This document shows positions 11,461-38,359 of a stretch of 64,000 nt of DNA, in pieces. The position numbers and the translations under genes are program-made. This stretch comes from Pomphorhynchus laevis. Lineage: Eukaryota > Acanthocephala > Palaeacanthocephala > Echinorhynchida > Pomphorhynchidae. The stretch is taken from assembly GCA_012934845.2 (NCBI GenBank), contig WNNJ02000295.1:51262-115261 (forward strand). Reading direction: 5' to 3'. Position 1 is the stretch's first letter. Each line of letters starts with the position of its first letter. A model generated the notes under the pieces. It saw only the letters and a list, made by a program, of their open reading frames with translations. It was not told the DNA's origin and did no database searches.

Positions 11461-11822
11461 TATGTTCATTTATTTTATCAAAACTAAGACATTTACAATT
11501 GCATTCTGTTTCCATCATGTTTCTAATATTATCGTTACATATTGATTGTAATTCTTTATTATAATTACAAATTTTTCGTCCTAATGGTGGTAGGAGTTTA
11601 TACCTTATTTTAGGAATATATTTACTTAAATCTGACCCTATTATTTCTTTACATTTAGAATTATTTAAAAGTCCGGCTATATTTATGTTATCTATACATT
11701 TCTTAATGAAGTTTATTATTAATGTATATTTTCTATTGTTATTATTAACATTTATTGTACGATTATAGTATTTTGTATTACAATAACTGTCTATTATACA
11801 ACTAAGCCTATCATAGTCGTTT

Positions 11823-14800: not shown

Positions 14801-17482
14801 CTGTTGCTTTAAAAAAGTCTAAAGTCAACGATCAACATACTATTCGTCACGTCTAAAGTGATTGAAAGCACTAAGCAGTATTATAAGTTATCTTCTTTAC
14901 ATTTTGAATGTCTGCATAACTTTCAAAATATAGCATTTTCTATAAATTGCTTAATTTTAGCCGCAAAATTATAATAAACTTAAAAGTTGCTAAATAGATT
15001 ATATTAATTTATATAAGGCGTATTAGTGATGCAGAATTGTGTTTTTTTATCATTCAAATGAATTTGGCATGTGTATCATTAAGATTGCATCAAACAAGCA
15101 TGATAACAATGGTCATGTTTATAATGGAATACGAAAATATGTTGAAAGCTGCTGTCGCTTTATAACTGGTCAACACTAACGATCAGCATACTCTTAATCA
15201 CTTCTAAATTTCAAAGATAAACGGAATAACTTTTCTGTTGTATGAGCTATTTTCGATGACTTTTTGGCTGTCGGCTTGACGTATTAAAAAGATCGGGCGT
15301 TTTAATGATGCTTATTTATGTTCAAAAGATTGTCATATGTATTATTAAGATTTCAAAAAATTGCTTTATTTTAGCGCCAAAATTATAGTAAACCTGAAAC
15401 TTGCTTATTAGATCATTTTTATATATATCAGGCGTTTTAATGATGCTTATTTATATCATTTTTTCCTTTAAAAGAATTTGACATTCTTAAAATAAAGATT
15501 GCATAAAACATGCATGACCATTGGGTCATGGATTTCAAAGGAATACGGCAATTTTTAAAAGCTGCTGTCGGGCACCAACTGGTCAGCCCCAAACGATCCG
15601 AATACTATTCGTCACTTCAAAGCATCAAAGATGTACAAAAGCACTCATCTGTAGTATTAGGCATCTCGATGACGTGGTAGCTGCCTGCTTGACTTTTGAA
15701 AAAAAATTATGTTCTCTAAATAGCTTAATTCGAACTGCTGAATTTTCGTAAACTAAAGACTTGCTTAGCAGACCATCTGTAATTATATCAGTCAATTCAT
15801 TTGTTGCGTCATAGTGTCATTCGTTAAATTGTTTAAAATATTGTCATATGTATTATTAAGATTACATAAAACAAGCATAATATCAACAGTCTAGCATTCC
15901 ATTGAAACAGTTTAAATTTTAAACAGCAAAATGTTAAAAGCTGCAATATGTAAAAAAGTCAACAGGTAACGATCAGCATACTATTTGTCACGTTTTAAAG
16001 TAAATGATGACCTAGAGCACTGATCAGTAGTATAAGCCATGTTGATTACGTTTTGGCTGTTTGCTTGACTTCTAAAAATTGCATTTTCTACAAATTGCTT
16101 GATTTAAGCGCTAAAATTATAGTAACTTAAAGCTTGCATATTAGATTATCTCTATTTATATCAAACGTTTTAATGATGCGGCATTGTGTTATTTTATTAT
16201 TCTCTAAAGAATTTAGCCTGTGTATGTTCAAGATAGCATCAAACATGCATGATACTAATTGTCATTGATTTCAATGGAATACGGCAATATGTTGCAAGCT
16301 GCTGTTGTTTGATAACTTAAATAAACTAACGATAATCATACTATTAATCACATCTAAACGTTAAAGAAAAACAGAGGCCATTAACAGTAGTATAAGCAAT
16401 CTCGATGACGTTTATACTGGCAGCTTAACTTTTTAAAAATAGCATGTTCTCAAAATTTCCTCATTCGAACTGCTGAATTCTCTTAAACGAATAATCTGCT
16501 TGTCATTCTATCATTATTTATATAAGTCAATTTATTTGTTGCGTTGTAGTGTCATTCAATGAATTATTAAAAAGATAATCGTATGTATCTTTGAGATTGC
16601 ATTAAACAAGCAATATGACAAGAGTCAACATTTCATTGGAATATGGAAAAATTTAAAAAGTTGCAATAGGTAAAAAACGTTTACAGATTATGATCAGCCT
16701 ACTATTTGTAACGTCAAAACGTCAATAATTACCGAAAGCACTAATCAGTAGTAAAATCAATCTTGATGACTCTATGGCTGTCTGCTTGCTTTATAAAAAA
16801 TTCATTCTTAATAAATTGCTCAATTAAAGCGGCAAAATTACTTTGAATTTTAATATAAGACCATGTTTATTTATATCAAGCATTTAATTGATGCGGCATT
16901 GTGTCACATTATGATCCTTTAAAAGAATTTGGCATGCATATGATTAAGATAGAATCAAACATGCATGATATTAATTGTCATAGATTTCATTTCAATACGG
17001 CATTATGTTTAAAGCTGCTGTCGTTTAATAACGGATCACAACTAACGATTAGAATACTATTAGTCACATCTAAACGTTCAAGCTGAACACAAGCACTTAT
17101 CGGTTGTATGAACAATCTCGATGACGTGTCGAGTGCCTGGTTTACTTACAAAAATAGCGTGATCTCTAAATTGCTTATTTCGAACTGAAGAATCCTCGTA
17201 AACTAAAAATCTGCTTGTTAGACTATCTCTATTTGTATCAGTTTTTTTTGCGTTGTAGCGTCATTCGTTTATTTATTTGAAAGATTAACGTATGTATCTT
17301 TGAAATTGCATTAAAAAGGCATAATAACAAGACTCAGTATTTCATTGGAATTAGACAAAATAATCAAATATGTAAAAAAAGTCAACAGATTACGATCAGC
17401 ATTATATTTGTAACGTCTAAATGTCAATGATAACCGGAAGCACTTATCAGTAGTATAAGTCATCTTGATGACGTTTTGGTTG
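11823..17482. repeat. Main satellite, diverged block with one duplicated segment
   Basis: Same two alternating monomer types as 3235-8214. The landmark ATACTATT(C/T)GTCAC recurs roughly every 345-360 bp. About 14827-15912 is nearly identical to 3225-4316, at a constant offset of about 11.6 kb, and far closer than neighbouring monomers are to each other. Towards the right end (from about 15950) the monomers become like the young arrays after 26.6 kb. ORFs at 15521-15751 and 16901-17086 are satellite frames that recur in other monomers. Confidence 0.9.
12850..12957 (+). repeat. PLE-derived filler inside satellite
   Basis: 12890-12957 matches the PLE RT-coding stretch at about 56868-56938 of copy 3 with about two differences. 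12850-12876 is a second, shorter copy of part of the same stretch. Ordinary satellite flanks both sides with a few bases of monomer missing. There are no PLE ends, so this looks like template-switch or break-repair filler rather than an insertion of an element. Confidence 0.8.
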
Positions 17483-17566
17483 TGTAATGATACTTACCTT
17501 TTGACTTGTTTTTCTAGATGTATTAGAATAAAGCCTATTCTTCTCTGCTTGAATTTACTCGGTACA
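17483..17566 (+). repeat. 5' LTR, 84 bp
   Basis: Starts TGTAATGATAC and ends CTCGGTACA. It differs from the 3' LTR at two positions (T/C near 17511 and T/G near 17536). AATAAA at 17527-17532 is a candidate poly(A) signal. Such short LTRs are known in the Mag group. Confidence 0.95.
17519..17532 (+). promoter_or_regulatory. Candidate self-primer segment within the LTR
   Basis: TGTATTAGAATAAA here is the exact reverse complement of 17568-17581 just behind the LTR. If transcription starts at or near 17519, the RNA's 5' end could fold back and prime, as in fission yeast Tf1. The start site is inferred, not seen. The segment also contains the AATAAA signal. Confidence 0.5.
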
Positions 17567-17589: not shown

Positions 17590-18060
17590 ATGGACAAGAT
17601 CTTGAAGCCAAACATCTTGGAATTGCATCCTGATGACACGAATGCCGAGCGCACCTGGAGACGTTGGCTCATACGTTTCAAGACATTCATTTCGTCCTTG
17701 GAGTCACCGTCCGATAGTGACAAATTTCACATTTGTACGAACCTGGTTTCAGCGGAGGTTTACGACCTTTTTCGAGAAACGTAAACTTACGAAGACGCGT
17801 TATCGACGTTATCTACTACGTACGTCAAATCGAAAACGGATTTGTTTCTGCGACATCAATTGCGTAATCAGCGCCAATCGTCCAACCAAACAATCGATCA
17901 ATTCATAAGGCATATCGAATCTCTGGGTCATGAATGTCCATTCGAGGCTGTAACAGCTCAAAATCATCGAGATTTATTTTTACGCGACACGTTTCGTCGC
18001 AGGAATCAACTCACCGATAATTCGGCAACGCCTGATTGAAGCTGCAGGTACACAATAAAG
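17590..18060 (+). pseudogene. Ty3/gypsy gag, broken
   Basis: Opens with ATG at 17590 inside CCATGG and reads a Ty3/gypsy gag: an N terminus MDKILKPNILELHPD, then a capsid-like segment. A TAA at 17782-17784 interrupts it. The same frame then continues with recognisable capsid sequence (RQSSNQTIDQFIRHIESLGH) to about 17990. An extra base near 17992-17994 shifts the frame: the expected continuation FVAGINSPIIRQRL is in the next frame. A further indel near 18052 leads into the pol frame. So gag carries one stop and at least two frameshifts and makes no full product. Confidence 0.8.
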
Positions 18061-19895
18061 CCAAGGTGTACGAGCTTGCACGAACTTTGGAAGACGCGCA
18101 TACTCAAGCAAGCCATTTCACAGAACAATCAAACTTAAATATGGGTTGTGAATCGATGACCATAAATGAACTACATGAAAATATACAAGAAGAACTTCCT
18201 TGTCAAATACAATGTAACTCGGTAGAACGTCGCAAATGCTACTTTTGTGGAGATACAATTCACAAACGAGATCGATGTCCTGCTAAGAATATCACTTGTC
18301 GTACTTGCGGGAAGTTGGGTCATTTCGCACGGGTGTGTAAATCCAAACGACAAATTTCAACAGGTGTCCATTCCGTGCTAGGTAGCACTTCTTTCTTTCA
18401 AGATTCTGCCGCAACGCTTCCAACAATTCAAATTTGTATAAAAGGGGTTTCGTTTAATGCCTTGATTGATACAGGTAGTGCACTCAATTTGATAAGACCT
18501 GATATTTCCACTTTGTGCAAACTGACATCGAACCCCTCAACTATACGTGTGTCTATGGCGAACACCGCATTCTCGACTAAATTACGACAATTCGTGGTAG
18601 CGGATATATCAGCTGATGGCAGACCTTACAAGAATATAAAATTCCATATTTTGTCGTCTTTATGTTCGGATGTTATACTTGGCCGGCCATTCCTTTCAAG
18701 ACACACTTCGTTACTTATGAAATTCAACGGTTCCGAGCCTTGTTTTACAATTGGAGCTGCAGAAGCTTTGACAGTTGAATCTCCTCAGCTATTCAAATTT
18801 CTGGACGAATCCATCCATCCTATCGCAACAAAATCTCGTAGAAGAAATCCGTACGATGAAAAGTTCATTGACAGCCAAATCAAACAACTATTATCCGACG
18901 AAATTATCGAACCAAGTCAATCGCCCTGGCGCGCTCAAGTACTCATTGTCAATCAGAACCAAAAGAGACGGATGGTTGTTGACTATTCGGAAACTGTCAA
19001 TAAATTTACTCAGCTCGACGCCTTCCCACTTCCACGAATTGATGATTTTATCAACAAATTAGCTCCATATTCCTTTTACAGTTGTCTCGATCTTAAATCA
19101 GCTTACCATCAGATTTTGCTGCGCAGTGACGAGCGTCATTATACTGCTTTCGAGGCGAATGGATCCTTATATCACTTCAATCGTCTACCATTCGGTCTCA
19201 CAAACGCCGTTCCTGCTTTTCAACGAGTTATCAATGGGATAATTAATAGAGAGAAGTTGACAGACACCTACGCTTATCTGGATGATGTCGTGATCGGCGG
19301 AAGAAGTAAAGAGCAACATGACAGTAACCTGAAGCGTTTTCTAAACGTAGCCACAAAATACAATATAACCTTGAACAATTCAAAGCGTGTGTTCGCGTCT
19401 TCGTGTATTCGAACACTTGGTTACCAAATTTCTAAAGGAAAAATGTCCCCTGATCCCAATCGAGTGATTTCAGTTACTTCCCTTGAGGAACCCAAGAACG
19501 CAGCATCCTTAAAGCGTATTGTTGGTTTGTTCGCCTACTACAGTTCCTGGATTAAAGATTTCTCAAAGTTGATTCGTCCTCTAATTGATTCTCAGTCTTT
19601 CCCATTATCTCATACTGCACTGAAAGCTTTCCATACTTTGAAGGAACGTATAGCTGAAATCACTGTCAACCCTGAAAACTTGGATGCAACGAAGTATATC
19701 GATGAGACGGTCAATCACTACAAGGAAAACGAACTATCCAGACAGGATGAATCATTTCTCTTAAATACTGATAATACGTGCCAGAGCAACTACCCTACGA
19801 GATACTTCAATCGTTCTGAAAATGGGGAACTACGACCTCAAAGAAATCGAAGAAGTCCTGCGTACTTAAATGATTATGTCGTGGGGAGAATGTAA
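18036..19895 (+). CDS. pol: Ty3/gypsy nucleocapsid-protease-RT polyprotein, RNase H and integrase deleted
   Basis: An open frame of 619 codons. The nominal start is only a TTG where the frame opens after the gag breaks; the true protein would begin in gag. Two zinc knuckles (CYFCGDTIHKRDRC and CRTCGKLGHFARVC, both C-x2-C-x4-H-x4-C; residues about 68-101) bind RNA. The aspartic protease follows with ALIDTGSALNLI (about 142-153). The RT spans about 270-460 with CLDLKSAYHQI, RLPFGLTNA and YLDDVVI as the catalytic motifs. After KAFHTLKERIAE, the very start of RNase H, the frame jumps to a terminal tail ending RSPAYLNDYV, typical of the pol C terminus. RNase H and integrase are therefore gone in frame. 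The frame runs 5 bp into the 3' LTR. Confidence 0.9.
   Translation: MKLQVHNKAKVYELARTLEDAHTQASHFTEQSNLNMGCESMTINELHENIQEELPCQIQCNSVERRKCYFCGDTIHKRDRCPAKNITCRTCGKLGHFARVCKSKRQISTGVHSVLGSTSFFQDSAATLPTIQICIKGVSFNALIDTGSALNLIRPDISTLCKLTSNPSTIRVSMANTAFSTKLRQFVVADISADGRPYKNIKFHILSSLCSDVILGRPFLSRHTSLLMKFNGSEPCFTIGAAEALTVESPQLFKFLDESIHPIATKSRRRNPYDEKFIDSQIKQLLSDEIIEPSQSPWRAQVLIVNQNQKRRMVVDYSETVNKFTQLDAFPLPRIDDFINKLAPYSFYSCLDLKSAYHQILLRSDERHYTAFEANGSLYHFNRLPFGLTNAVPAFQRVINGIINREKLTDTYAYLDDVVIGGRSKEQHDSNLKRFLNVATKYNITLNNSKRVFASSCIRTLGYQISKGKMSPDPNRVISVTSLEEPKNAASLKRIVGLFAYYSSWIKDFSKLIRPLIDSQSFPLSHTALKAFHTLKERIAEITVNPENLDATKYIDETVNHYKENELSRQDESFLLNTDNTCQSNYPTRYFNRSENGELRPQRNRRSPAYLNDYVVGRM
19880..19890 (+). 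promoter_or_regulatory. Polypurine tract
   Basis: CGTGGGGAGAA directly abuts the 3' LTR start at 19891. Its purine run is where plus-strand priming is expected. Confidence 0.75.
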
Positions 19896-19974: not shown

Positions 19975-20876
19975 GGTTGTCTGCTTTACTTTTTAAAAAA
20001 CATTTTATATAAGATGCTTGATTTTAGCGTCAAAATTATAGTAACTTTAAACATGCACATTGGACCATCTTTATTTATATAAAGAGTTTAAATGATGCGA
20101 CATTGTGTCATTTAATTATCATTTTAAAGAATTTGGCATGTTGATGATTAAGATAGCATAAACATGCATGATCTTTATTGTTATATAATTCAATTAAATA
20201 CGGCAATATGTTTCAAGTTGTGTCGTTTGATTACTTATCAAAACAAACGATAATTTTACTATTAATCACATCTAAACTTCAAAGAGGAACACAAGCCATC
20301 ATCAGTAGTATAAGCAATCTCGATGAAGTTTCGACTGCCAGTTAGACTTTGTTTAAATAGCATGTGCTCTTCATAGTTTAATCGAACTGCTGAATTCTCG
20401 TAAACTGGAAATTTGATTGTCAGACTATCTCTATTTATATCAGTTAATTTATTTGTTGCGTCATAATTCATTAAATTATTTGAAAGATTATCGTATGTAT
20501 CATTAAGATTGCATCTAACAAGCATGATAACAAGAGACAGCATTTCATTGGAATAGTGCAAAATGTTAAATATGCAATACGTAAAAACGTCAACAGAAAA
20601 CTATCCGCATACTATTTGCCACGTTTAAACTTCAATGATAACCGAAAGCCCTAATTAGTAGTATGATCCATCTTGATGACGTTTTGGCTGTCCGCTTGAC
20701 TTTTAAAAATTGCATTTCGTACAAATTGCGTGATTTAGCGGCAAAATTATAGTAACTTAAAACTTGAATATAAACTATCTCTATTGATTTTAGGCGTTTC
20801 AATGATGCAGCATTGTGTCGTTTTTTATCTTTTAAAAGAATTTAAAATGTGTATGATTAAGATTACATCAAATATG
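19975..20876. repeat. Main satellite between two insertions
   Basis: The satellite continues in phase with the monomer cut by the LTR element, through about two and a half monomers. It ends at GATTACATCAAATATG (20861-20876), where the USP-encoding retrotransposon inserted. The matching uninterrupted monomer occurs at 30848-30910. ORFs at 19870-20082 and 20262-20561 are satellite frames. Confidence 0.9.
20861..20876. repeat. Target duplication, left (degenerate)
   Basis: GATTACATCAAATATG; the right copy at 26607-26622 reads GATTGCATCAAACATG. Two mismatches in 16 are consistent with an aged duplication. Confidence 0.7.
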
Positions 20877-21357
20877 AAAAAAAAATTTTGGTTTCTAATA
20901 AAAATACATTTGAGATAAAATTACATACAATAACTAACAACAACCATCGACAACCATCCGCTTGACAATTATTGACAACCATCGACGACAACAGCTCACT
21001 ACTTACAACTTACGACTACATACAACTACGGCGAACTACTTACAACTAACGCGAACTACAAAAAATTTTGGTTTCTAATAAACATACAGAATCAATAACC
21101 CAAAAACTGAAGACCTTAAAAAATTTTGTTTTCTAATAAACATACAGAATCAATAACCCAAAAACTGAAAAAGATCGTATTAAATTTGGTGTTGAATTAG
21201 CTACCTATTCAAGTTATATTCAAATTACAATAAATAACATATAATTAATATACACAATCAAGAACATATCAAGAACATAGTTAAAGATCAAGAAAAGATC
21301 AAGAACAGAACAAGAAAGTGCATCCTGCAAAAACCCATCAGACCCATCAGATCGACA
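20877..21357 (+). promoter_or_regulatory. 5' UTR with repeated promoter-like module
   Basis: Three copies of a module reading AAAAAATTTTGGTTTCTAAT followed by AAACATACA start near 20877, 21061 and 21118. The second and third extend into a further shared 25-bp stretch. Between the first two lies a run of short ACAACCATCGAC- and TACAACTA-type repeats. Nearer the ATG are several GATCAAGAA repeats. The same module opens RLE elements A and B (49.2, 49.4 and 52.8 kb). It may be a promoter monomer, by analogy with tandem 5' UTR monomers of some LINEs; function is inferred. Confidence 0.6.
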
Positions 21358-24300
21358 ATGTACAGAACGGGTAACAATTTGATTCCATCATCAATTACGT
21401 CAGCTCACTCCGCCTCACACCCTACAAGTTCTAATGGCGAGTTCATTTCTCAAGTTAATTTTAATATGTGCCATATTTGTAGAGAGGTTCGCAACCGGAA
21501 GCGTATAACGCAATGTCACGCTTGCGGGAATTATTTTCACCTTTCCTGTGTTGGCCTTACAAAGAAGCAGTCCAAGACGATTCCCAAGTGGGTCTGTACG
21601 AGTTGCGTGTTTAATCTACCTGGACAAATTGCAACGTATTGCTCAGATACGTCGAAGTCCCTCGTTGGAGTGACTGCAGACCAGAGTGAACAAGACTCTC
21701 ATAATGATGATATCTCGGCATTGGCAAAAGTTTGGTCTGCTCCGGTTCAAACGGTTGTTCGACTTCCATGGAGCACCCGTACACATGCTGCACTGTTATT
21801 CGCTGATGCGATTAAAGCGGTTCTTACAAGGAACAATATTGCTTCATGGGTTCGATTATTGAGTATGCCAAAGTTATGCTTTCACCTGACAGCAACCCAG
21901 CAAGACCGGTTACGTTCACGAGAGGCATCAAAAGCTATTAGCGAACATCTGAACATGTTCGCAAATTCCTGTATTACCGATCTCGCAGGTTCTTTAGCAG
22001 ATAAGAGATACTCAAGGAGCACAAACAGGTGTGGCAAAGTATCGGAGGTGATCACTATTGCTAGGAGAGGGAACTATGGTAAGGCAGTGCGGCGGCTGAC
22101 GTCAAACGATCTTTGTGACGCTTCGCAGCAAGTGCGAGAACGATCGGTTCAATTACACCCCCGTCAGAGTGTCCAAGGTGAGTTTCCGTTTATGTATCCG
22201 GATATTCAGTGATGCAGTGATATAAGTGACGCTGTACAAGTAGACCGAGACCTTGTGTGGAGAGCCATCCAGTCATTTCAACCGTCAACTTCACCAGGTT
22301 GCCTAGGGTGGCGTCCTGAACATTTGCAGGACATGATTGCAGCGGATTGTGGGGGCAGCTTATTGGAGAGGCTTACACAGCTTGTCAACCACTTATTGGC
22401 GGGGCTTGCCCCAACTGAGCTTGCGCCGTGGTTAGCTGGAGCAGCATTGATAGGAGTGCCTAAAATAGATGGAGGGGTTCGGCCAATTGCTTCGGGTGAG
22501 ACGCTGCGTCGACTTTGCGCCAAATGTATCTGTATGAAGCTGAGAGGTAGCTTTGCACGGATTCTCCGCCCGACACAACTTGGTGTCTCGACTCCTAACG
22601 CCATTGAAACAATAATACACAAAGTACGAAGGATTCACACATCGTATAGAAACCGACTTGATTGGGTTTGGGCCAAGATGGACCTGTCCATTGCATTCAA
22701 TTGTGTCAACCGATCATCAATGCTAGACGAGGTGTTTGATCTCACCCCAGAGATTTACCCATGGGTTAGCTGGTGTTACGACAAGCCATCAAATCTAAGG
22801 TTTGGAAACATGAAACCTCTAATATCAGAGCAGGGAGTTCAACAGGGCGATCCTTTAAGACCTTTTCTTTTCTGTCTAGCGATCCAGAAGGTGATTACCC
22901 AGCCCAATGATAGTGAGGGAATCGAAGTTAACTGCTGGTACCTCGATGACGGCATCGTTGGAGGCAACCCTGAGGCTGTGGCTAATACCCTCAACAAACT
23001 AGAGAAGGCGTTCCACGTTTTGAACCTGAACTTAAATTGGGCAAAGACTGAAGTTACCGGTGATCCGGTAGCTGTTCGGAAGTGCATTTCGCTGTGCACA
23101 GAACGTCCATCTGCAAATATGACATGTAATTTTCATGTGCTTGGAACACCCATTGGTGACGATATTTTCGTAAACTCACACCTGCACGAGCAAGCTTTCC
23201 CCAAGCTAAAACAAGCAATCGACGCTGTTTCTTCGCTTCCAGATCCGCAGATTGCATATTTGCTGTTGCGTCATTGTGTCGCCGGCCCAAAGATCAATCA
23301 TTTCAACCGTACAATTCCACCCCTAGTAATGGAAAGTTTTTTACACAGGTTTGACCAGGAAGTCATGCAAGCCTTTGAGCGAATAACAGCGACTCAATTA
23401 AATGAGGCCACTCGACAACAAGTTGCGCTCCCTCTAAACCTTGGAGGGCTCGGTCTGCGAAGTGGAGAGAAGCACTCATTTTGCGCGTATATCTCTAGCA
23501 TATTGTCGGTTGCACGGAATGGATCGCGCGACCCCAGAGAGTACGTAGGTTATGATGACACTTTGAGTCGGATGGTCAGTATGTTACAAAATGAGTTTGA
23601 ACTTCTTGCCAACACAAAACAATCACGAATGTCATTTATGGTCGATAAGAAGTCACATGAATGCTTTCTCGGTCAAGCGAACCAATTTGATAAAGCGCAA
23701 CTACTCGCAATAGCAAGACCGCATGCAAGTGCCTGGCTGCAAGTAACCCCCTGTCAAATCCAACGAGTAGATCTAACGCCGCCACAATTTTGTATCCTCG
23801 TGCGTCTATGGTTGGGACTAGCCATTTTCCCAAAGAAACATCGGTGCGACCGTTGCCTTCGTTCATCGGATATTTATGGTCTGCACGCGCTCACATGTCA
23901 ATACGGGGGACATCGAGGCCTTCGTCATGATGGCATTCGAGATGTTTTATTCCATGCGGCGCAGAATGCTCGAATGCACGTCTCGCTAGAACCACAGAGA
24001 TTATTGCCTGATCTTCGTGAAAGACCAGCCGATATCTTGATACATGGAGACCCCCCAGAAGCGGTGGATTTTGCAGTTACGCACCCACAACAGAGTGGTT
24101 TCCTGGCAGAAGCTGCTATTTCAGAAGGCTACGCAGCAGCGGCATATGCTGCCAATGTTAAGGATCGAAAATACCGAGCGCGTATGGAGGCCCATGGTTA
24201 TGTGTTCACACCCGCTGTTGTTGAGGTGTTTGGAGGTTGGAATGTCAAGGGCGAACAATTAATTAGACGTATCGCTGGTAATGTTAGTAAAGTTCGGGGT

Positions 24301-26577
24301 ATTCCCTATAGCGTAGCGGTTACCAAGTTGTTCCAACGTACCTCAGTGGCCCTTATGCGTGGTAACGCCCGCGCGCTATTGGCCTCACTTGGAATATCCT
24401 ACTCGTCTAGTTCATGGGGACGCCCTCCGGTAACCCATGAACCGCTCAAACGATTTTTCGAAGAAAGCCAAGATGAGATGCAAAAGTCACAAAAACAAGG
24501 TAGCATCGAAGATATGGTTGACAAAGAACTGAGCACCTTTAAAGAAAAACTTACTGACAGGGAAGATAATGAGATGATCCATCTGACCACTGACGTATTC
24601 CTGACAGCAGAAGAACTCGAAAACGTTAATGAATCCTCCATTCCAAAAGACCTTTCCATTCCATCCAAAAAACAACAGCAGGAAGGTCTCAATCAGGGTT
24701 ACAGCGAAGGTTCGCCTCTTAATATGGCGAAATGTGTCGATGACCTGACAATCTCTCATCCGTCTCCAAACCACTTAGTCTTAACGGAGGAATTTTATTC
24801 ACGAAATAATGGTCATTACAGCGACGCAGAAAGCCAACACGCGCCATCCAAACGAATTGTATCGCAAAGTCATTCACGTCCTATCGGTTTCCCCAATATA
24901 GGCAACAGTTGTTTTTTGAACGATATCCTGAGGCCCCTCTTTTGCCTCGATATGTTCATGATCCATGTTCGCACACAATACGCTTTCAGCGAGATTCTTA
25001 ATTACATTAGGAAAAAACGGGAATCAATTGACAATCAACCATTTGGCGTAACACGATTCACAGTCAAAGCAATCAGAAATCGAAATCGGCAATATCGTAC
25101 GGTTACGCACCCGCCTACTGACATTGAAAACCGCGTCGTTACATTTTTGGGACATATGAATTGCCTCGCCGACATATTAGAACATGCAAATAGTAAACAG
25201 GGCACAGTCAAGAGAGCCATACGGGGTATACTGGACCTGACCCCACTCGAGAAACTTAGACAACATGACGCACACGAGATGTTGCTCTCTATTTTTGACC
25301 TACTACCCAGTTGCGACGACCTCTTTTCGTTTACGGTGTGTAATACCCTACGATGCACTCACTGTGACGCAGTGACTCGATCAGAAGACGTGAGTTTCGA
25401 TCTCTGTCTTGGTACCAGATTGGGCGGGGCCATGAAAGTCAAAGACGCTAACTCAATCCCACAGCCACGGCCCGAATGGAAAACTGACTATCCAGATGAG
25501 TGCGATCTAAATGCCTGTGTGCAAAAGAGGTTTGGTGATGAGATGGTTGACGGTTTCTTGTGCATCCATTGCGGGAAGTATGGTGTAAAGATCAGCCGAA
25601 AAATTAACTCACTTCCGTCAATGTTGATAATCTCCTTGCTGCGCTTCGGAATCGAGCCATGTCCTTACTCGAATGTGTTTGACGCAAGTACTCGGGACTG
25701 CAGCCGTGACATTGTTACTTCAAAGCTCATGACAAAGGTAGCTATTCCAGAACATCTAAATATGTATGATTATTGTGTACAACCCTCGTTACCCACTGAA
25801 TATATACTCCACGCGATAGTCAGCCACGAGGGGTTCTGTCCGAAGTTTGGTCACTACATCTGTGATGCCAGGCTGCAAGTACCCTGTGCACAGATACCAC
25901 ACGGATCTAAGAAAAACGACCCCGTCATTCGTTGGTTTACTTTTAACGATGACGTTGTGGACCGGTACAAGGATTTTAGCAAGTTACTGCAGGATCGGCA
26001 AAGGTCCGCATACATCTTGTTTTATCAAAAAAGTGATAAAGCCGCAAACAAAAATATGTGCAATGCAGAAATGCACTTGACGAATAAATACAGGGATCTT
26101 TGTAAGAGTCAAGTTTACTCAGAACAAACGAGCGGCGTGATGTTTTGCCACCATGCCGAAAAGAGCAAAAAATGGAAGGGGTCAGGCGAGAAGCAGAGCG
26201 AAGCCCCCGACGAAAAGACGATGATGACAGGGACTGAAGAAAGAAGTGACGTCCGCTCGGCGGCGACTGGCAGCAATAAAGCACGAAAAGGATCCAAGCG
26301 GAAATCCAAATCAGACAGAAAGCGATCAAAGAAAGTGGGGAGGAAAGAGAATATGAACGGAAAATCGGCGTCGAGTGAAAAGAACGACATAAAACGTAAG
26401 AAGAAGATAATTGAATCGGAACAACCGAAAAAGGATGCGAAAGTCGAGACAGTGAATAATAAAAAAATCAGCTTCGGTAATCCCATCGAAAAGACAAAAA
26501 AGAAAGACGAAGTCATGAAGCCGCTCACAATGGCTGACAATGAAGAGACTGAAACAATAGAGGGCGCAAAACATTAA
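21358..26577 (+). CDS. PHD-RT-RLE-USP retrotransposon polyprotein with one in-frame TGA
   Basis: Starts at ATG 21358 and is open in one frame to TAA 26577 (1739 codons), except for TGA at 22210-22212 (codon 285). The PHD finger is C4HC3 (C38, C41, C53, C56, H61, C64, C80, C83). The RT spans about 370-680: GGVRPIASGE, D442 in KMDLSIAFN, GVQQGDPL, YLDD (D530-D531), LGTPIG. The RLE has a CCHC knuckle C830-C833-H843-C847, then RHDGIRD and the nuclease pair D892 and D904. A USP domain occupies about 1176-1560: Cys box GFPNIGNSCFLN with C1185, zinc ribbon pairs C1333/C1336 and C1402/C1405, LPSMLIISLLRF, His box with H1499 in FGHYICDA, WFTFNDDVV with D1531, and AYILFYQ. A Lys-rich, NLS-like tail follows. 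The protein would nick target DNA, reverse-transcribe its RNA and, by inference, remove ubiquitin from some substrate. Confidence 0.92.
22210..22212 (+). other. In-frame TGA between PHD region and RT
   Basis: The frame is coding on both sides: LHP and FPFMYPDIQ before, VWRAIQSFQPS after. An apparent start at 22255 is a GTG codon 14 codons downstream and is not convincing as a real start. Either one nonsense mutation or programmed readthrough explains it. Confidence 0.85.
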
Positions 26578-26606
26578 CAGTTGTAACACTTTTATGTTGT
26601 ACTTGT
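26578..26606 (+). terminator. 29-nt 3' UTR
   Basis: From the stop codon to the target duplication there are only 29 bases, with no A-tail and no AATAAA. The RNA determinant recognised by the RT would have to be this short tail or lie within the coding region. Confidence 0.6.
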
Positions 26607-29600
26607 GATTGCATCAAACATGCATGATACTAATTGTCATTGATTTCAATCGAATACGGAAATTTGTTCAGAACAGCTGTCGTTTAATAACTTATCAACA
26701 CTATCGATAACAATACCATTGGTCACCTCTGAAGTCAAAGATAAACACAAGCACTCATTAGTAGTAGCAATCTCGATGACGTTTATACTGGCAGCTTTAC
26801 TTTTAAAAAATATCATGTTCTCAAAATTTCCTCATTTGAACTGCTGAATTCTCGTAAACTAATAATCTGCTTGTCTTTCTATCATTATTTATATCAGTCA
26901 ATTTATTTGTTGCGATGTATTGTCATTCGTTAAATTATTAAAAAGATAATCGTATGTATCTTTGAGATTGCATTAAACAAGCATTATGACAAGAGTCAAC
27001 ATTTCATTGGAATATGGCAAAATGTAAAAAGCTGCAATAGGTAAAAAACGTTAACAAATTACGATCAGCATACTATTTGTAACGTCAAAACGTCAGTAAT
27101 TACCGAAAGCACTAATCAGTAGTAAAATCAATATTGATGACTTTATCGCTGTCCGCTTGCTTTATAAAAAATGCATTCTTAATAAATTGCTCAATTTAAG
27201 CGGCAAAATTATTACTTTAAATTTGAATATTATACCATCTTTATTTATATCGGGCATTTAAATAATGCGGCGTTGTGTCACATTATGATCCTGTAAAAGA
27301 ATTTGGCATGCATATGATTAAGATAGAATCAAACATGCATGATATTAATTGTCAATAGATTTCATTTCAATACGGCATTATGTTTAAAGCTGCTGTCGTT
27401 TAATAACGGATCACAACTAACGATTAGCATAATATAATTTACATCTTAACGTTCAAGCTGAACACAAACAGTCATCTGTAGTATGAACAATCTCGATGAC
27501 GTTTCGGATGTCGCTTTACTCTAAGAAATAGCATGTTCTCTGAATTGCTTAATTTAAACTGAAGAATCCTCGTTACCTAAAAATCTGCTAGTTAGACTAT
27601 CTCTATGTATATCAGTTTATTTATTTTTTGTGTTGTAGCGTCATTCGTTAAATTATTTTGAAGATTAACGTATGTATCTTTTAAATTGCATTAAACAAGC
27701 ATAAAAACAAGAGTCAGTATTTCATTGGAATTAGGCAAAATGTTCAAATATGTAAAAAAAAGTTAACAGATTACGATCAGCATTATATTTGTAACGTCTA
27801 AATGTCAATATTAACCGGAAGCACTAGTAAGTAGTATGAGTCATTTTAATGACGTTTAAGCTGTCTTCTTGATTTTTTAGTGAAAGCATTTTATACAAAA
27901 TGCTTGATTGTAGCGTAAAATTATAGAAACTTTAAACATGTACATTAGACCATCTTTATTTATATAAAGAGTTTAAATGATGCGGCGTTGTGTCATTTAA
28001 TTATCATGTACAAGAATCTGACATGTGAAACGATGAAGATAGCATCAAACATGAATGATATTAATTTTCATAAATTTCAATTGAATACGGCAATTTGTTT
28101 TTAGCTGCTGTCGTTTGATTACTTATCAAAACAAACGATAATTTTACTATTAATCACATCTAAACGTCAAAGAGGAACACAAGCCATCATCAGTAGTATA
28201 AGCAATCTCGATGACGTTTCGACTGCCAATTAGACTTTTAAAAAATAGCATGTTATCTTCATAGTTTTATCGAACTGCTGAATTCTCGTAAACTGAAAAT
28301 TTGCTTGTCAGACTATCTCCATTCATATCAGTCAATATTTTGTTTCGTTTTAGTGTCATTTGTTAAATTATTCGAAAGATTATCGTATGTATTTTTGAGA
28401 TTGTATTAAACAAGCATGATAACAAAATTCAGCATTTCATTGGAATAGCGCAAAATGTTAAAAGCTGCAATATGTAAAAAAGTCAACAGTTAACGATCAG
28501 CATACTATTTGTCACGTTTTAAAGTAAATAATGACCCAGAGCACTGATCAGTAGTATAAGCCATGTTGATTACGTTTTGGCTGTTTGCTTGACTTCTAAA
28601 AATTGCATTTTCTACAAATTGCTTGATTTAAGCGCTAAAATTATAGTAACTTAAAGCTTGCATATTAGATTATCTCTATTTATATCAAACGTTTTAATGA
28701 GGCGGCATTGTGTTATTTTATTATTCTCTATAATAATTTAGCCTGTGTATGTTCAAGATAGCATCAAACATGCATGATACTAATTGTCATTGATTTCAAT
28801 GGAATACGGCAATATGTTTCAAGCTGCTGTTGTTTGATAACTTATAAAAACTAACGATAATCATACTATTAATCACATCTAATCGTCAAAGAAAAACATA
28901 AGCCATCATCAGTATAAGCAATCTCGATGACGTTTATACTGGCAGCTTGACTTTTGAAAAATAGCATGTTCTCAAAATTTCCTCATTCGAACTGCTGAAT
29001 TCTCGTAAACTAATAATCTGCTTGTCATTCTATCATTATTTATATCAGTCAATTTATTTGTTGCGTTGTAGTGTCATTCGTTAAATTATTAAAAAGATAA
29101 TCGTATGTATCTTTGAGATTGCATTAAACAAGCATTATGGCAAGAGTCAACATTTCATTGGAATATGGAAAAATGTAAAAAGCTGCAATAAGTAAAAAAC
29201 GTTTACAGATTATGATCAGCCTACTATTTGTAACGTCAAAACGTCAATAATTATCGAAAGCACTAATCAGTAGTAAAATCAATCTTGATGACTCTATGGC
29301 TGTCTGCTTGCTTTATAAAAAAATGCATTCTTAATAAATTGCTCAATTTAAGCGGCAAAATTATTACTTTAAATTTGAATATTAGACCATCTTTATTTAT
29401 ATCGGGCATTTAAATGATGCGACATTTTGTCAAATTATAATCCTTTTAAAGAATTTGGCATGCGTATGATCAAGATAGCATCGAACATGCATGATATTAA
29501 TTGTCATAGATTTCAATTCAATACGGCATTATGTTTTAAGCTACTGTCGTTTAATAACGGATCACAAGTAACGATTAGCATACTATTAGTCACATCTAAA

Positions 29601-32600
29601 CGTTCAAGCTGAACACAAGCACTTATCTGTAGTATGAACAATCTCGATTACGTGTCAGATGCCTGCTTGACTTACAAAAATAACATGTTCTCTAAATTGC
29701 TTATTTCGAACTAAAGAATCCTCGTAAACTAAAAATATGCTAGTTAGACTATCTCTATTTATATAAGTTAATTTGTTTTGCGTTGAAGCGTCATTCGTTC
29801 ATTTATTTGAAAGATTAACGTATGTATCTTTGAAATTGCATTAAAAAGGCATGATAACAAGACTCAGTATTTCATTGGAATTAGACAAAATGTTCAAATA
29901 TGTAAAAAAAGTCAACAGATTACGATCAGCATTATATTTGTAACGTCTAAATGTCAATGATAACCGGAAGCACTTATCAGTAGTATAAGTCATCTTGATG
30001 ACGTTTTGGTTGTCTTGCTTTACTTTTTAAAAACACCATTTTATATAAAATGCTTGATTTAAGCGTCAAAATTATAGTAACTTTAAACATGCACATTGGA
30101 CCATCTTTATTTATATAAAGAGTTTAAATGATGCGGCATTGTGTCATTTAATTATCATTTAAAAGAATTAAGCATGTGGATGATTAAGATAACATAAACA
30201 TGCATGATCTTTATTGTTATATAATTCAATTAAATACGGCAATATGTTTCAAGTTGTGTCGTTTGATTACTTATCAAAACTAACGATAATTTTACTATTA
30301 ATAACATCTAAACGTCAAAGAGGAACACAAGCCATCATCAGTTGTAAAGCCAATCTCGATGACGTTTCGGCTGCCAGTTAGACTTTTTAAAAATAGCATG
30401 TGCTCTTCATAGTTTTATCGAACTGCTGAATTCTCGTAAACTGGAAATTTGATTGTCAGACTATCTCTATTTATATCAGTCAATTTATTTGTTGCGTCAT
30501 AATTCATTAAATTATTTGAAAGATTATCGTATGTATCATTGAGATTGCATCTAACAAGCATGATAACAAGAGACAGCATTTCATTGGAATAGTGCAAAAT
30601 GTTAAATATGCAATACGTAAAAACGTCAACAGAAAACTATCCGCATACTATTTGCCAAGTTTAAACTTCAATGATAGCTGAAAGCACTAATTAGTAGTAT
30701 GATCTATCTTGATGACGTTTCGGCTGTTTCCGCTTGACTTTTAAAAATCGCATTTCGTACAAATTGCGTGATTTTAGCGGCAAAATTATAGTAACTTAAA
30801 ACTTGAATATAAACTATCTCTTTTGATTTTAGGCGTTTTAATAATGCAGCATTGTGTCATTTTATTATCCTTTAAAAGAATTTAAAATGTGTATGATTAA
30901 GATTACATCAAACATGCATGATACTAATTGTCATTGATTTCAAAGGAATACGGTAATTTGTTCAGAACAGCTGTCGTTTAATAACTTATCAACACTATCG
31001 ATTACAATACTATTGGTCACCACTGAACGTCAAAGATAAACACAAGCACTCATTAGTAGTAGTCGCAATCTCGATGACGTTTATACTGGCAGCTTTACTT
31101 TTGAAAAATATCATGTTCTCAAAATTTCCTCATTTGAACTGCTGAATTCTCGTAAACTAATAATCTGCTTGTCTTTCTATCATTATTTATATCAGTCAAT
31201 TTATTTGTTGCGTTGTAGTGTCATTCGTTAAATTATTAAAAAGATAATCGTATGTATCTTTGAGATTGCATTAAACAAGCATTATGACAAGAGTCAACAT
31301 TTCATTGGAATATGGCAAAATGTAAAAAGCTGCAATAGGTAAAAAACGTTAACAAATTACGATCAGCATACTATTTGTAACGTCTAAACGTCAATAATAA
31401 CTGAAAGCACTAATCAGTTGTAAAATCAATCTTGATGACTTTTTGGCTGTCTGCTTGCTTTATAAAAATACCATTTTTTATAAATTGCTTGATTTAAGCG
31501 GCGAAATTATAACTTTAAATTTAAATATTAGACTATATCTATTTATATCTAGCATTTAAATGATGCGACATTTTGTCAAATTATAATCCTTTTAAAGAAT
31601 TTGGCATGCGTATGATCAAGATAGCATCGAACATGCATGATATTAATTGTCATAGATTTCAATTCAATACGGCATTATGTTTTAAGCTGCTATTGTTTAA
31701 TAACTGAGAAACACTAACGATTAGCATACTATTATTCACATCTTAACGTTCAAGCTGAACACAAACAGTCATCTGTAGTATGAACAATCTCGATGACGTT
31801 TCGGATGTCGCTTGACTCTAAAAAATAGCATGTTCTCCAAATTGCTTAATCCAAACTGAAGAATCCTCGTTACCTACAAATCTGCTAATTAGACTATCTC
31901 TATGTATATCAGTTAATTTATTTTTTGTGTTGTAGCGTCATTCGTTAAATTATTTTGAAGATTAACGTATGTATCTTTTAAATTGCATTAAACAAGCATA
32001 AAAACAAGAGTCAGTATTTCATTGGAAATTAGGCAAAATGTTCAAATATGTAAAAAAAAGTCAACAGATTACGATCAGCATTATATTTGTAACGTCTAAT
32101 CGTCAATGATAACCGAAAGCACTAGTCAGTAGTATGAGTCATTTTAATGACGTTTTAGCTGTCTTCTTGACTTTTTAGAAAAAGCATTTTATACAAAACA
32201 GTTGATTGTAGCGTGAAATTATAGTAACTTTAAACATGCACATTGGGATATCTTTATTTATATAAAGAGTTTAAATGACGGTTCATTGTGTCATTTAATT
32301 ATCATGTTACAAGAATCTAACATGTGGATGATTAAGATAGCATCAAACATGCAATGATCTTTAATTGTTATAAATTTCAATTAAATACGGCAATATGTTT
32401 CAAGTTCTGTCGTTTGATTACTTATCAAAACAAACGATAATTTTACTATTAATCACATCTAATCGTCAAAGAGAAACACAAGCCATCATCAGTTGTAAAG
32501 CCAATCTCGATGACGTTTCGGCTGCCAGTTAGACTTTTTAAAAATAGCATGTGCTCTTAATAGTTTAATCGAACTGCTTAATTCTCGTAAACTGGAAATT

Positions 32601-35600
32601 TGATTGTCAGACTATCTCCATTTATATTAGTCAATATTTTGTTTCGTTGTAGTGTCATTTGGTTTAATTATTCGAAAGATTATTCGTATGTATTTTTGAG
32701 ATTGTATTAAACAAGCATGATAACAAAATTCAGCATTTCATTGGAATAGGGCAAAATGTTAAAAGCTGCAATATGTAAAAAAGTCAACAGATAACGATCA
32801 GCATACTATTTGTCACGTTTTAAAGTAAATAATGACCCAGAGCACTGATCAGTAGTATAAGCCATGTTGATTACGTTTTGGCTGTTTGCTTGACTTCTAA
32901 AAATTGCATTTTCTACAAATTGCTTGATTTAAGCGCTAAAATTATAGTAACTTAAAGCTTGCATATTAGATTATCTCTATTTATATCAAACGTTTTAATG
33001 ATGCGGCATTGTGTTATTTTATTATTCTCTAAAGAATTTAGCCTGTGTATGTTCAAGATAGCATCAAACATGCATGATACTAATTGTCATTGATTTCAAT
33101 GGAATACGGCAATATGTATCAAGCTGCTGTGGGTTGATAACTTATAAAAACTAACAATAATCATACTATTAATCACATCTAAACGTCAGAGAAAAACATA
33201 AGCCATCATCAGTATAAGCAATCTCGATGACGTTTATACTGGCAGCTTGACTTTTGAAAAATAGCATGTTCTCAAAATTTCCTCATTCGAACTGCTGAAT
33301 TCTCGTAAACTAATAATCTGCTTGTCTCTCTATCATTATTTATATCTGTCAATTTATTTGTTGCTTTGTAGTTTCATTCGTTAAATTATTAAAAAGATAC
33401 TCGTATTTATCTTTGAGATTGCATTAAACAAGCATTATGGCAAGAGTCAACATTTCATTGGGATATGGAAAAATGTAAAAAGCTGCAATAGCTAAAAAAC
33501 GTTTACAGATTGTGATCAGCCTAATATTTGTAACGTCAAAACGTCAATAATTACCGAAAGCTCTAATCAGTAGTAAAATCAATCTTGGTGACTTTATGGC
33601 TGTCTGCTTGCTTTATAAAAAATGCATTCTTAATAAATTGCTCAATTTAAGCGGCAAAATTATTACTTTAAATTTGAATATTAGATTTTCTTGATCTATA
33701 AAGGCATTTAATTGATGCGGCATTGTGTCACATTATGAACCTTTAAAAGAATTTTGCATGCATTTGATTAAGATATAATCAAACATGCATGATATTAATT
33801 GTCGTAGATTTCATTTCTATACGGCATTATGTTTAAAGCTGCTGTTGTTTAATAACAAATCACAAGTAAGGATTAGCATACTATAAGTCACATCTAAACG
33901 TTCAAGCTGAACACAAGCACTTATCTGTAGTATGAACAATCTAGATGACGTGTCAGATGCCTGCTTAATTTGCAAAAATAGCATATTCTCTAAATTGCTT
34001 TTTTCGAACTGAAGAATCCTCGTAAACTAAAAATATGCTAGTTAGACTATCTCTATTTAAATCAGTTAATTTTTTGGTGTTGTAGCGTCATTCGTTTATT
34101 TATTTGAAAGATTAACGTATGTATCTTTGAAATTGCATTAAAAAGGCATAATAACAAGACTCAGTATTTCATTGGAATTAGACAAAATGTTCAAATCTGT
34201 AAAAAAAGTCAACAGATTACGATCGGCATTAAATTTGTAACTTCTAAATGTCAATGATAACCGGAAGCACTTATCAGTAGTATAAATCATCTTGATGACG
34301 TTTTGGTTGTCTTCTTTACTTTTTAAAAATAACATTTTATATAAAATGCTTGATTTAATCGTCAAAATTATAGTAACTTTAAACATGCACATTGGACCAT
34401 CTTTATTTATATAAAGAGTTAAAATGATGCGGCATTGTGTCATTTAATTATCATTAAAAAGAATTTAGCATGTGGATGATTAAGATAACATAAACATGCA
34501 TGATCTTTATTGTTCTATAATTCAATGAAATACGGCAATATTTTTCAAGTTGTGTCGTTTGATTACTTATTAAAACTAACGATAATCATACTATTAATAA
34601 CATCTAAACGTCAAAGAGGAACACAAGCCATCATCAGTTGTAAAGCCAATCTCGATAACGTTTCGGCTGCCAGTTAGACTTTTTAAAAATAGCATGTGCT
34701 TTTCATAGTTTAATCGAACTGCTGAATTTTTGTAAACTGGAAATTTGATTGTCAGACTATCTCCATTCATATCAATCAATATTTAGTTTCGTTGTAGTGT
34801 CATTTGGTTAATTATTCGAAAGATTATCGTATATATTTTTGAGATTGTATTACACAAGCATGATATCAAAATTCAGCATTTCATTGGAATAGGGCGAAAT
34901 GTTATAAGCTGCAATATGTAAAAACGTCAACAGATATCGATCAGCATACTATTTAATACGTTTTAAAGTAAATAATGACCCAGAGCACTGATCAGTAGTA
35001 TAAGCCATGTTGATTACGTTTTAGCTGTTAGCTTGACATCTAAAAATTGCATTTTTTTCAAATTGCTTGATTTAAGCGCTAAAATTATAGTAACTTAAAG
35101 CTTGCATATTATATAATCTATATTTTTTATCAAACAATTTAATGATGCGGCATTGTGTTATTTAATTATTGTCTAAAAGAATTTAGCCTGTGTATGTTCA
35201 AGATAGCATCAAACATGCATGATACTAATTGTCATTGATTTCAATGGAATACAGCAATATGTATCAAGCTGCTGTTGTTTGATAACTTATAAAAACTATT
35301 TATTATCATACTATTAATTACATCTAAACGTCAAAGAAAAACATAAGCCATCATCAGTATAAGCAATCTCGATGACGTTTATACTGGCAGCTTGACTTTT
35401 TAAAAATAGCATGTTCTCAAAATTTCCTCATTCGAACTGCTGAATTCTCTTAAACTAATAATCTGCTTGTCATTCTATCATTATTTATATTAGTCAATTA
35501 ATTTGTTGCGTTGTAGTGTCATTCGTTAAATTATTAAAAAGATAATCGTATGTATCTTTGAGATTGCATTAAACAAGCATTATGGCAAGAGTCAACATTT

Positions 35601-38115
35601 CATTGGAATATGGAAAAATGTAGAAAGCTGCAATAGGTAAAAAACGTTTACAGATTATGATCAGCATACTAAATGTAACGTCTAAACGTCAATAATAACT
35701 GAAAGCACTAATCAGTTGTAAAATCAATCTTGATGACTTTTTGGCTGTCTGCTTGCTTTATAAAAATACCATTTTTTATATATTGCTTGATTTAAGCGGC
35801 GAAATTTTAACTTTAAATTTAAATATTAGACCATATCTATTTATATCTAGCATTTAAATGATGCGACATTTTGTCAAATTTTAAGTCTTTTAAAGAATTT
35901 GGCATGCGTATGATCAAGATAGCACCGAACATACATGATACTAATTGTCATTATTTCAATGGAATAAGGCAATATGTATCAAGCTGCTGTTGTTTGATAA
36001 CTTATAAAAACTAACGATAATCATACAATTAATCACATCTAAACGTCAAAGAAAAACATAAGCCATCATCAGTATAAGCAATCTCGATGACGTTTATTCT
36101 GGCAGCTTTACTTTTGAAAAATATCATGTTCTCAAAATTTCCTCATTTGAACTGCTGAATTCTCGTAAACTAATAATCTGCTTGTCATTCTATCATTATT
36201 TATATAAGTCAATTTATTTGTTGCGTTGTAGTGTCATTCGTTAAATTATTAAAAAGATAATCGTATGTATCTTTGAGATTGCATTAAACAAGCATTATGA
36301 CAAGAGTCAACATTTAATTGGAATATGGCAAAATGTAATATGCTGCAATAGATAAAAAACGTTAACAAATTACGATCAGCATACTATTTGTAACGTCTAA
36401 ACGTCAATAATAACTGAAAGCACTAATCAGTTGTAAAATCAATCTTGATGACTTTTTGGCTGTCTGCTTGCTTTATAAAAATACCATTTTTTATATATTG
36501 CTTTATTTAAGCGGCTAAATTATAACTTTTAATTTAAATATTAGACCATATCTATTTATATCTAGCATTTAAATGATGCGACATTTTGTCAAATTTCAAG
36601 TCTTTTAAAGAATTTGGCATGCGTATGATAAAGATAGCATCGAACATACATGATATTAATTGTCGTAGATTTCAATTCAATACGGCATTATGTTTTAAGC
36701 TGCTATTGTTTAATAACTGAGAAACACTAACGATTAGCATACTATTATTCACATCTTAACGTTCAAGCTGAACACAAACAGTCATCTGTAGTATGAACAA
36801 TCTCGATGACGTTTCGGATGTCGCTTGACTCTAAAAAATAGCATGTTCTCCCAATTGCTTAATTCAAACAGAAGAATCCTCGTAACCTAAAAATCTGCTT
36901 ATTAGACCATTTTTATGTATATCAGTTTATTATTTTTTGTGTTGTAGCGTCATTCGTTAAATTATTTTAAAGATTAATGTATGTATCTTTAAAATTGCAT
37001 TAAACAAGCATAAAAACAAGAGACAGTATTTCATTGGAATTAGGCAAAATGTTCAAATATGTAGAAAAAGTCAACAGATTACGATCAGCATTATATTTGT
37101 AACGTCTAATCGTCAATGATAACCGAAAAAACTAGTTAGTAGTATGAGTCATTTTATGACGTTTTAGCTGTCTACTTGACTTTTTCGAAAATGCATTTTA
37201 TACAAAATGCTTGATTGTAGCGTAAAATTATAGAAACTTTAAACATGCACATTGGACATCTTTATTTATATAAAGAGTTTAAATGATGCGGCATTGTGTC
37301 ATTTAATTATCATTTAAAAGAATTTAGCATGTGGATGATCAAGATCACATAAGCATGCATGATATTTATTGTAATATAATTCAATTAAATACGGCAATAT
37401 GTTTCAAGTTGTGTCGTTTGATTACTTATCAAAACAAACGATACTTTTACTATTAATCACATCTAAACGTCACCGAGGAACACAAGCAATCATCAGTAGT
37501 AAAAGCAATCTCGATGAGGTTCGACTGCCAATTAGACTTTTAAAAAATAGCATGTTATCTTCATAGTTTTATCGATCTGCTGAATTCTCGTAAACTGAAA
37601 ATTTGCTTGTCAGACAATCTCCATTTATATTAGTCAATATTTTGTTTCGTTGTAGTGTCATTTGTTTAATTATTCGAAAGATTATCGTATGTATTTTTGA
37701 GATTGTATTAAACAAGCATTATGGCAAGAGTCAACATTTCATTGGTATATGGAAAAATGTAAAAAGCTGCAATAGGTAAAAAACGTTTACAGATTATGAT
37801 CAGCCTACTATTTGTAACGTCAAAACGTCAATAATTACCGAAAGCACTAATCGGTAGTAAAATCAATCTTGATGACTTTATGGCTGTCTGCTTGCTTTAT
37901 AAAAAAATGCATTCTTAATAAATTGCTCAATTAAAGCGGCAAAATTATTACTTTAAATTTGAATATTAGACCATCTTTATTTATATCAGGCGATAACTGA
38001 TGCGGCATTGTGTCACATCGTGATCCTTTAAAAGAATTTGGCGTGCATATGATTAAGATAGAATCAAACATGCATGATATTAATTGTTAGATTTCATTTC
38101 AATACGGCATTATGT

Positions 38116-38359
38116 TTAGAGCAGCTGTCGTTTAATAATGGATCACAAGTAACGATTAGCAGACTATTAGTCACATCTAAACGTTCAAGCTGAACGTTTC
38201 GGCTGTCCGCTTGACTTTTAAAAATTGCATTTCGTACTTAAAGCTGCTGTTGTTTAATAACGGATCACAAGTAACAATTAGCATACTATTAGTCACATCT
38301 AAACGTTCAAGCTGAACGTTTCGGCTGTCCGCTAGACTTTTAAAAATTGCATTTCGTAC
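38116..38359. repeat. 122-bp tandem duplication at a monomer fusion
   Basis: 38116-38237 and 38238-38359 are direct copies differing at several bases. Each joins the GTTCAAGCTGAAC part of one monomer type directly to the GTTTCGGCTGTCCGC part of the other, dropping about 80 bp. The same illegitimate junction is thus present twice. Confidence 0.85.

Follow-up and report, generated by a model that had tools for sequence, protein, structure and literature searches.

A complete USP deubiquitinase domain at the C terminus of an RLE-type non-LTR retrotransposon in Pomphorhynchus laevis

We found that the window, the whole stretch of 64,000 nucleotides of Pomphorhynchus laevis DNA that was analysed, contains one copy of an RLE-type non-LTR retrotransposon and that the long frame of this copy terminates in a complete USP deubiquitinase domain. 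The USP is part of the mobile unit and moves with the element. The features of the window copy, in window coordinates, are as follows.

20862 to 20876, plus strand: left half of a candidate 15-bp target-site duplication, read directly (right half at 26608-26622, 2 mismatches)
20932 to 26606, plus strand: RLE-type non-LTR retrotransposon copy, about 5.67 kb (blastn against fetched family loci)
21358 to 22212, plus strand: N-terminal part of the ORF with a PHD finger, terminated by TAA (Pfam)
21469 to 21606, plus strand: PHD finger (PF00628, E 2.5e-8)
22255 to 26577, plus strand: uninterrupted open frame of 1440 codons for reverse transcriptase, RLE, linker, USP and basic tail (ORF list and translation)
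22456 to 23058, plus strand: reverse transcriptase domain with YLDD (RVT_1, PF00078, E 1.1e-15, residues 68-268)
23845 to 24249, plus strand: RLE with CCHC motif and R..D..D..K motif (alignment of 31 proteins, no Pfam model)
24391 to 24867, plus strand: RLE-USP linker (nothing in Pfam passes the cut-off)
24883 to 26025, plus strand: USP (peptidase C19) domain (Pfam UCH and motifs)
24910, plus strand: USP C1185 (motif position)
25354 to 25365 and 25561 to 25572, plus strand: USP CxxC zinc pairs 1333/1336 and 1402/1405 (motif positions)
25852, plus strand: USP H1499 (motif position)
25945 to 25950, plus strand: USP N1530/D1531 (motif position)
26038 to 26574, plus strand: Lys-rich C-terminal tail (translation)

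In the window copy, the reverse transcriptase (RT) is followed by a CCHC motif and an R..D..D..K motif, which we take to be the signature of an RLE, and the family includes 5'-truncated copies with a 3' end in common; both findings place the element among RLE-type non-LTR retrotransposons. When the window protein was aligned with 30 relatives, C531, C534, H544, C548, R590 and D605 were invariant and K636 was conserved in at least 90% of the sequences. In the PDB, R2 is the single sequence that the RT-RLE part matches, and the match is weak (E 7e-4). The RT trees described below are made up mostly of unnamed homologues rather than named references from the RLE clades (CRE, NeSL, R2, R4, HERO). 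By blastn of the fetched loci, several copies start near 20932 and 3' ends lie near 26590-26622. The preliminary description had placed PHD, RT, RLE and USP in one frame. We found that the frame is indeed shared; however, the TAA at 22210-22212 splits the PHD part from the RT-RLE-USP part in the window copy. This stop is private to the window copy, since it is present in only 1 of the 12 copies that cover the codon.

The complete USP proposed in the preliminary description is borne out by an HMM check with PF00443, which covers residues 877-1257 of the 22255-26577 ORF and matches the whole profile (positions 1-254 of 254, E 1.1e-29, 104.2 bits, where the cut-off is 23.9), and by a fold comparison in which the domain has the USP fold. 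The Cys, His and Asn/Asp boxes and the CxxC zinc pairs occur in USP order, and C1185, H1499, D1531 and both zinc pairs sit where that description had put them. D1531 had also been named as catalytic. It is a conserved Asp; however, by comparison with USP2 and USP7, N1530, which directly follows the F, is the likelier residue to complete the triad, with D1531 as the neighbouring invariant Asp. From these motifs, the window USP is predicted to cleave ubiquitin. By fold, USP1 with FANCD2, USP46/USP12 and SAGA Ubp8 are among the many USPs that tie for best match, and the best PDB sequence match is USP1 (47.5 bits). A word-based search of 5.8 billion sequences with the USP part, in which 1796 candidates were scored, returned two proteins, both from P. 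laevis and 97% and 75% identical. In one P. laevis gene model, P0001 (GJ496_011421), the element USP is joined to a stretch listed as PF03096, and this model is probably a merged annotation.

To follow the USP across the genome we compared the window copy with other copies in P. laevis. Where they share parts of the 20932-26606 unit with the window, eighteen fetched copies match it at 97.3-98.7% identity (blastn). At all 28 places where a match of at least 97% identity reaches the last base of the RT-RLE query, the sequence continues at the next base into the linker and USP; these 28 are a sample, in which 40 of 170 candidates were scored, and include probable assembly duplicates. RT-RLE matches that stop earlier are fragments, contig ends or, in one case (C611), an internal gap immediately followed by the USP. 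The 5'-truncated copies retain the USP and end near a common place. Chance capture of a USP by a single copy is ruled out by the 28 of 28 places with a USP after RT-RLE. Of 18 distinct copies, 10 have an uninterrupted USP frame and all 18 retain the codons for Cys, His, Asn and Asp, so the catalytic residues are preserved as first described; because the copies differ from the window by only 1.3-2.7%, this count is not strong evidence alone. All 11 copies that span PHD to USP have a stop or frameshifting indel somewhere relative to the window frame. Some of the single-base indels may be long-read errors; the assembly was built from PacBio and Illumina reads, according to the assembly paper (PMC7310846). 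Among the 20 fetched regions, L016 and L024 are without a copy of the window element, and L025 was dropped as a duplicate of L009. Five loci (L010, L011, L014, L017 and L020) have an alternative 3' end directly after the stop, which suggests two subfamilies. Copies with equal scores on different contigs (C1920/C2625, C148/C679 and C679/C2366) are likely assembly duplicates or haplotigs.

The preliminary description had held that copies ending after the RLE, with the USP present only in the window as a captured host gene fragment, would speak against a USP element. None of the 28 scored copies extending to the end of the RLE is of this kind, and other copies of the window element keep the USP; however, there is a separate sister family, with RT-RLE 56-57% identical to the window family, in which we found no USP in 4 loci. 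This family groups with the window family in the RT tree (support 100/99), and two of its four loci share sequence to about 390 bases beyond the RLE. In a more distant family, whose RT-RLE is 34-56% identical over aligned parts, a relic of the USP Cys box (44-67 residues) is present, about 430 bases past the RLE in the 4 loci where this is measurable, and its DNA is 64-67% identical over 133-140 bases. Among the 11 loci listed, five were read (L035-L039, on C2757, C2101, C684, C2143 and C518), and in these the catalytic Cys is Phe in four and Leu in one. The relic-bearing RLE family is older than the window family. Since sister families lack the USP or keep a dead relic, the USP module can be lost. 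A further P. laevis RLE relative lies on the minus strand of L024 (2623-5889), with RT-RLE 48% identical and its frame in pieces; the long stretch after its RLE has no USP match.

To see what related elements carry, we used the window RT-RLE as a query and found at least 62 homologues among the 7992 scored candidates sharing most words. Among relatives P0003-P0025, 20 of 23 end no more than 61 residues past the RLE. The nearest relative, P0003 (51%), has PHD-RT-RLE followed by an AAA domain and lid (Pfam, residues 1338-1514) that matches its profile only from position 23. This AAA, which in our judgement resembles that of the proteasome subunit Rpt3, seems to be without Walker A; because it is incomplete and apparently lacks this motif, enzymatic activity does not extend to every module. 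At its N terminus, P0023 carries an OTU domain (Pfam, residues 12-91). In P0005, residues of about 165-244 read as a ubiquitin-like domain ending in LRGG, with no Pfam match. This stretch favours a reading in which the USP cuts the polyprotein of the element, or a ubiquitin-like fusion, much as NeSL/Utopia Ulp1-type proteases might. However, the window element has no ubiquitin-like domain, 3 of 183 proteins contain an LRGG-like pattern with only that of P0005 in a suitable, ubiquitin-like-looking stretch, and a stricter LRGG-type pattern was found in none of the related proteins; we consider such self-processing very improbable.

The preliminary description had suggested looking for the PHD-RT-RLE-USP order in other genomes. 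This order is present in P0033 (31% identical to the window; Pfam scan, UCH E 2.4e-65) and in P0121 (precomputed Pfam list), and because P0033-related proteins share it, it is not unique to P. laevis. With the P0033 RT-RLE as query, PF00443 is carried by 24 of the 120 best of 262 homologues, P0033 included, and 22 of these 24 also have RVT_1. The PHD is listed for P0033 and P0121 and is below cut-off in P0081 and P0131, and 8 of the 24 USP-bearing proteins match the USP profile only in part. Three records from the barnacle Amphibalanus amphitrite (P0063, P0065 and P0107) contain RT-RLE. Judged by this domain content, P0063 ('Ubiquitin carboxyl-terminal hydrolase 38') and P0065 ('2') look like retrotransposon proteins, and the practical consequence is that barnacle genes annotated as USP38 and USP2 contain an RT-RLE. 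By best PDB match, a rough guide to USP kind in which USPs without a solved structure are missing from the set, P0033 is closest to USP8 (307 bits), P0065 to USP2 (369 bits), and P0063 and P0131 to USP35 (168 and 154 bits); the kind of P0126 is unclear, with USP21 first at 53 bits. Four kinds are thus counted: USP1-like in the worm and USP8-, USP2- and USP35-like in P0033-related elements.

To compare the history of the USPs with that of the RTs, we grouped the USPs by mutual similarity before building RT trees, first with 120 rows (P0036-P0062 and P0150-P0179 left out) and then as a careful tree of 22 chosen rows (without P0107, a near copy of P0063). We found that USP kind does not track the RT tree and that USP classes A, B and C are intermixed. 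One RT clade, supported at 100/100, unites P0033 (class A), P0063 (B) and P0080 (C), and the AU test rejects classes A, B and C as single RT clades (p 1.1e-64, 1.9e-72 and 1.3e-55). Some pairs have similar RTs and dissimilar USPs: RT 80% vs USP 29% identity for P0033/P0063, 83% vs 32% for P0033/P0080 and 75% vs 28% for P0072/P0109. Others have the USP as the more similar part: RT 47% vs USP 65% for P0063/P0131, 60% vs 75% for P0065/P0072 and 59% vs 74% for P0085/P0080. Class A itself splits into USP8-like P0033 and USP2-like P0065, in a PDB comparison that excluded P0072, P0084 and P0104. Some of the USP-RT proteins are gene models that may be merged wrongly, and many lie on contigs of less than 6 kb, but each class spans several RT lineages. 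A single USP origin for all USP elements is disfavoured: identity between the window USP and 12 element USPs of classes A-C is 24-32%. By sequence, the window USP is nearest to a free-standing P. laevis USP at C2701 (33%, 194 bits, vs at most 43 bits to element USPs, although the percentages nearly overlap), whose own PDB matches are a near tie between USP1 (45.9) and USP12 (44.3).

These patterns fit an exchange of modules by 3'-end template switching in target-primed reverse transcription; alternatively, repeated capture from conserved host genes may take the place of element-to-element swaps. Our broadest proposal, which we put forward tentatively and with rather more doubt than confidence, is that RLE elements have a C-terminal slot for ubiquitin-pathway enzymes, that this slot has been refilled with at least four USP kinds and a class of unclear descent, exchanged by 3'-end template switching, and that the deubiquitinase is a general counter-defence against the proteasome. 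If true, LINEs would offer a clear example of modular evolution, with modules passing from one RT lineage to another.

For the function of the USP itself, we give an even chance to a model in which it acts in cis, deubiquitinating its own RT-RLE protein or partners so that the RNP escapes the proteasome, with different USPs interchangeable and swapped by template jump. The USP would be tethered to the RT-RLE protein on its own RNA, would strip ubiquitin from that protein or its immediate partners, and would thereby let the RNP evade the proteasome long enough for target-primed reverse transcription. USPs of different descent would be interchangeable because tethering, not intrinsic specificity, selects the substrate. 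Since reverse transcription starts at the 3' end, a template jump would join the 3' module of one element to the RT of another, and capture from host mRNAs would bring in new USP kinds. The recurrent fusion of unlike deubiquitinases in the same place argues for a shared activity, the removal of ubiquitin, rather than a particular substrate. Relatives hold further modules of the ubiquitin pathway, namely the OTU of P0023 and the proteasome-type AAA of P0003. Speaking against the model are the copy-level changes that look neutral, the sister families with no USP or only a relic, the 20 of 23 relatives that stop soon after the RLE, the partial USPs in 8 of 24 proteins and the incomplete AAA of P0003. 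Should the module counteract degradation of the protein, it would offer a direct genetic handle on ubiquitin-based host restriction of retrotransposons.

To ask whether the USP is under selection, we counted changes among the 18 copies under an assumed weighting of transitions. In all domains the private changes look neutral, with dN/dS of about 1 (USP, 70 nonsynonymous or stop : 28 synonymous), and shared changes are too few to be informative (USP 16 nonsynonymous : 5 synonymous, RT 1 : 3). We also compared the window USP with the worm free-standing USP at 65 columns on which at least 70% of ten other USPs (nine element-borne, one worm gene) agree: 38 are kept by both, 4 by the element only, 6 by the free-standing USP only and 17 by neither. 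The element USP is therefore as conservative as a cellular-looking gene, since retention is nearly equal. This comparison suggests constraint on the element USP only indirectly, and part of the conservation may predate capture. Among the 16 element USPs outside P. laevis that match more than 200 profile positions, all 16 have the Cys (4 in a box that is atypical by eye) and 14 have a GHY His box. The neutral copy-level changes, together with the sister families that have no USP or a dead relic, the incomplete AAA of P0003 and the partial USPs in 8 of 24 proteins, are what would be seen if pieces of host mRNA were occasionally template-switched onto the 3' end and persisted there without function. 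However, the Cys and His boxes are widely kept outside P. laevis, one enzyme class recurs across several RT lineages, and the conserved columns are retained as well as in the worm free-standing USP; we regard a functionless passenger as improbable.

The window copy is inserted in a satellite of about 715 bp, whose register across the insertion overlaps by about 15 bp. The preliminary description had inferred targeting of heterochromatic satellite; this is not supported, since the satellite unit matches the fetched flanks of 0 of 16 other copies and blastn found no satellite match near any other fetched copy. Among the copies tested, the satellite location is peculiar to the window copy. By eye the flanks of the copies differ, and insertion into a single target, as in NeSL/Utopia, is not what we see. 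As for target-site duplications in the 16 other copies, in 6 of them the longest string that the two flanks have in common is above the 95% level of 60 shuffles, but its position varies. Copies of the satellite (about 64-95% identity) make up much of the window, at about 3222-17483, 20001-20876, 26607-45816 and 58129-64000, and there is a separate 305-bp tandem array at 1215-2700. Other elements in the window are a Ty3-like piece with a CCHC knuckle, aspartic protease and RT (18036-19895), an RT ORF weakly similar to an endonuclease-reverse transcriptase family (LINE-like; 46577-49030) and an RT ORF of 1063 aa (49462-52653; RVT_1 7.6e-12, 25% identical to the window RT-RLE) whose C-terminal part is RLE-like by eye, without a USP.

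A different reading is that the PHD directs the USP to chromatin or repair proteins where the element integrates (H2A/H2B, PCNA, FANCD2), and that its action there would open the target or delay repair. The PHD sits before the RT, the tied fold matches include USP1 with FANCD2, USP46/USP12 and SAGA Ubp8, and Bao et al., 2010 (PMC2836005) suggested that transposon Ulp1 and OTU domains may act on DNA repair. However, many USPs tie in fold score, and no preference for a satellite target is seen in the 16 other copies. The USPs of relatives are USP8-, USP2- and USP35-like, and because these enzymes differ in their cellular roles a fixed nuclear substrate is less likely; we consider action on chromatin or repair unlikely, though worth keeping in view. 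Taken together, the case for ubiquitin removal as the shared activity leads us to rank cis protection of the element's own RNP first, ahead of a role at chromatin or in repair, and to place the passenger last of the three.

Several known systems resemble the window element in part. R2 shares its RT-RLE core, by the weak match given above, and is not known to carry a protease. USP1, USP12 and USP46 are tied nearest to the window USP by fold, yet they are without an RT-RLE fusion, and the same is true of the free-standing P. laevis USP at C2701, nearest by sequence, in the 198 bases upstream that are readable. Among titles and the starts of abstracts, mainly outside subscription journals and without Repbase, none that we saw describes a non-LTR retrotransposon with a USP. 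As described in PMC4640811, NeSL of nematodes and Utopia-1_TSP are RLE-type elements with zinc fingers, RT, RLE and a Ulp1-like cysteine protease. Like the window element, they join an RLE-type core to a cysteine protease of the ubiquitin/SUMO pathway; in contrast, their protease is Ulp1-like and N-terminal and the elements are target-specific, whereas the window element has a C-terminal USP and no shared target is seen. Pfam lists no Ulp1 domain in the window element and UCH instead. In PMC2836005, Ginger1 is described with OTU and Ulp1, Mutator with Ulp1 and Helitron with OTU, and a T. vaginalis protein has transposase_11 beside a Peptidase C19 (USP) domain. These mobile elements carry ubiquitin/SUMO proteases as the window element does, in one case a C19 and in one case with a PHD; however, they are DNA transposons, whereas the window element is a non-LTR retrotransposon. 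Thus, Ulp1 and OTU in mobile elements and C19 in one DNA-transposon protein were already known. That distant relatives of the window element carry different USPs in the same place suggests that RLE elements repeatedly hijack the protein-tagging system of the cell.
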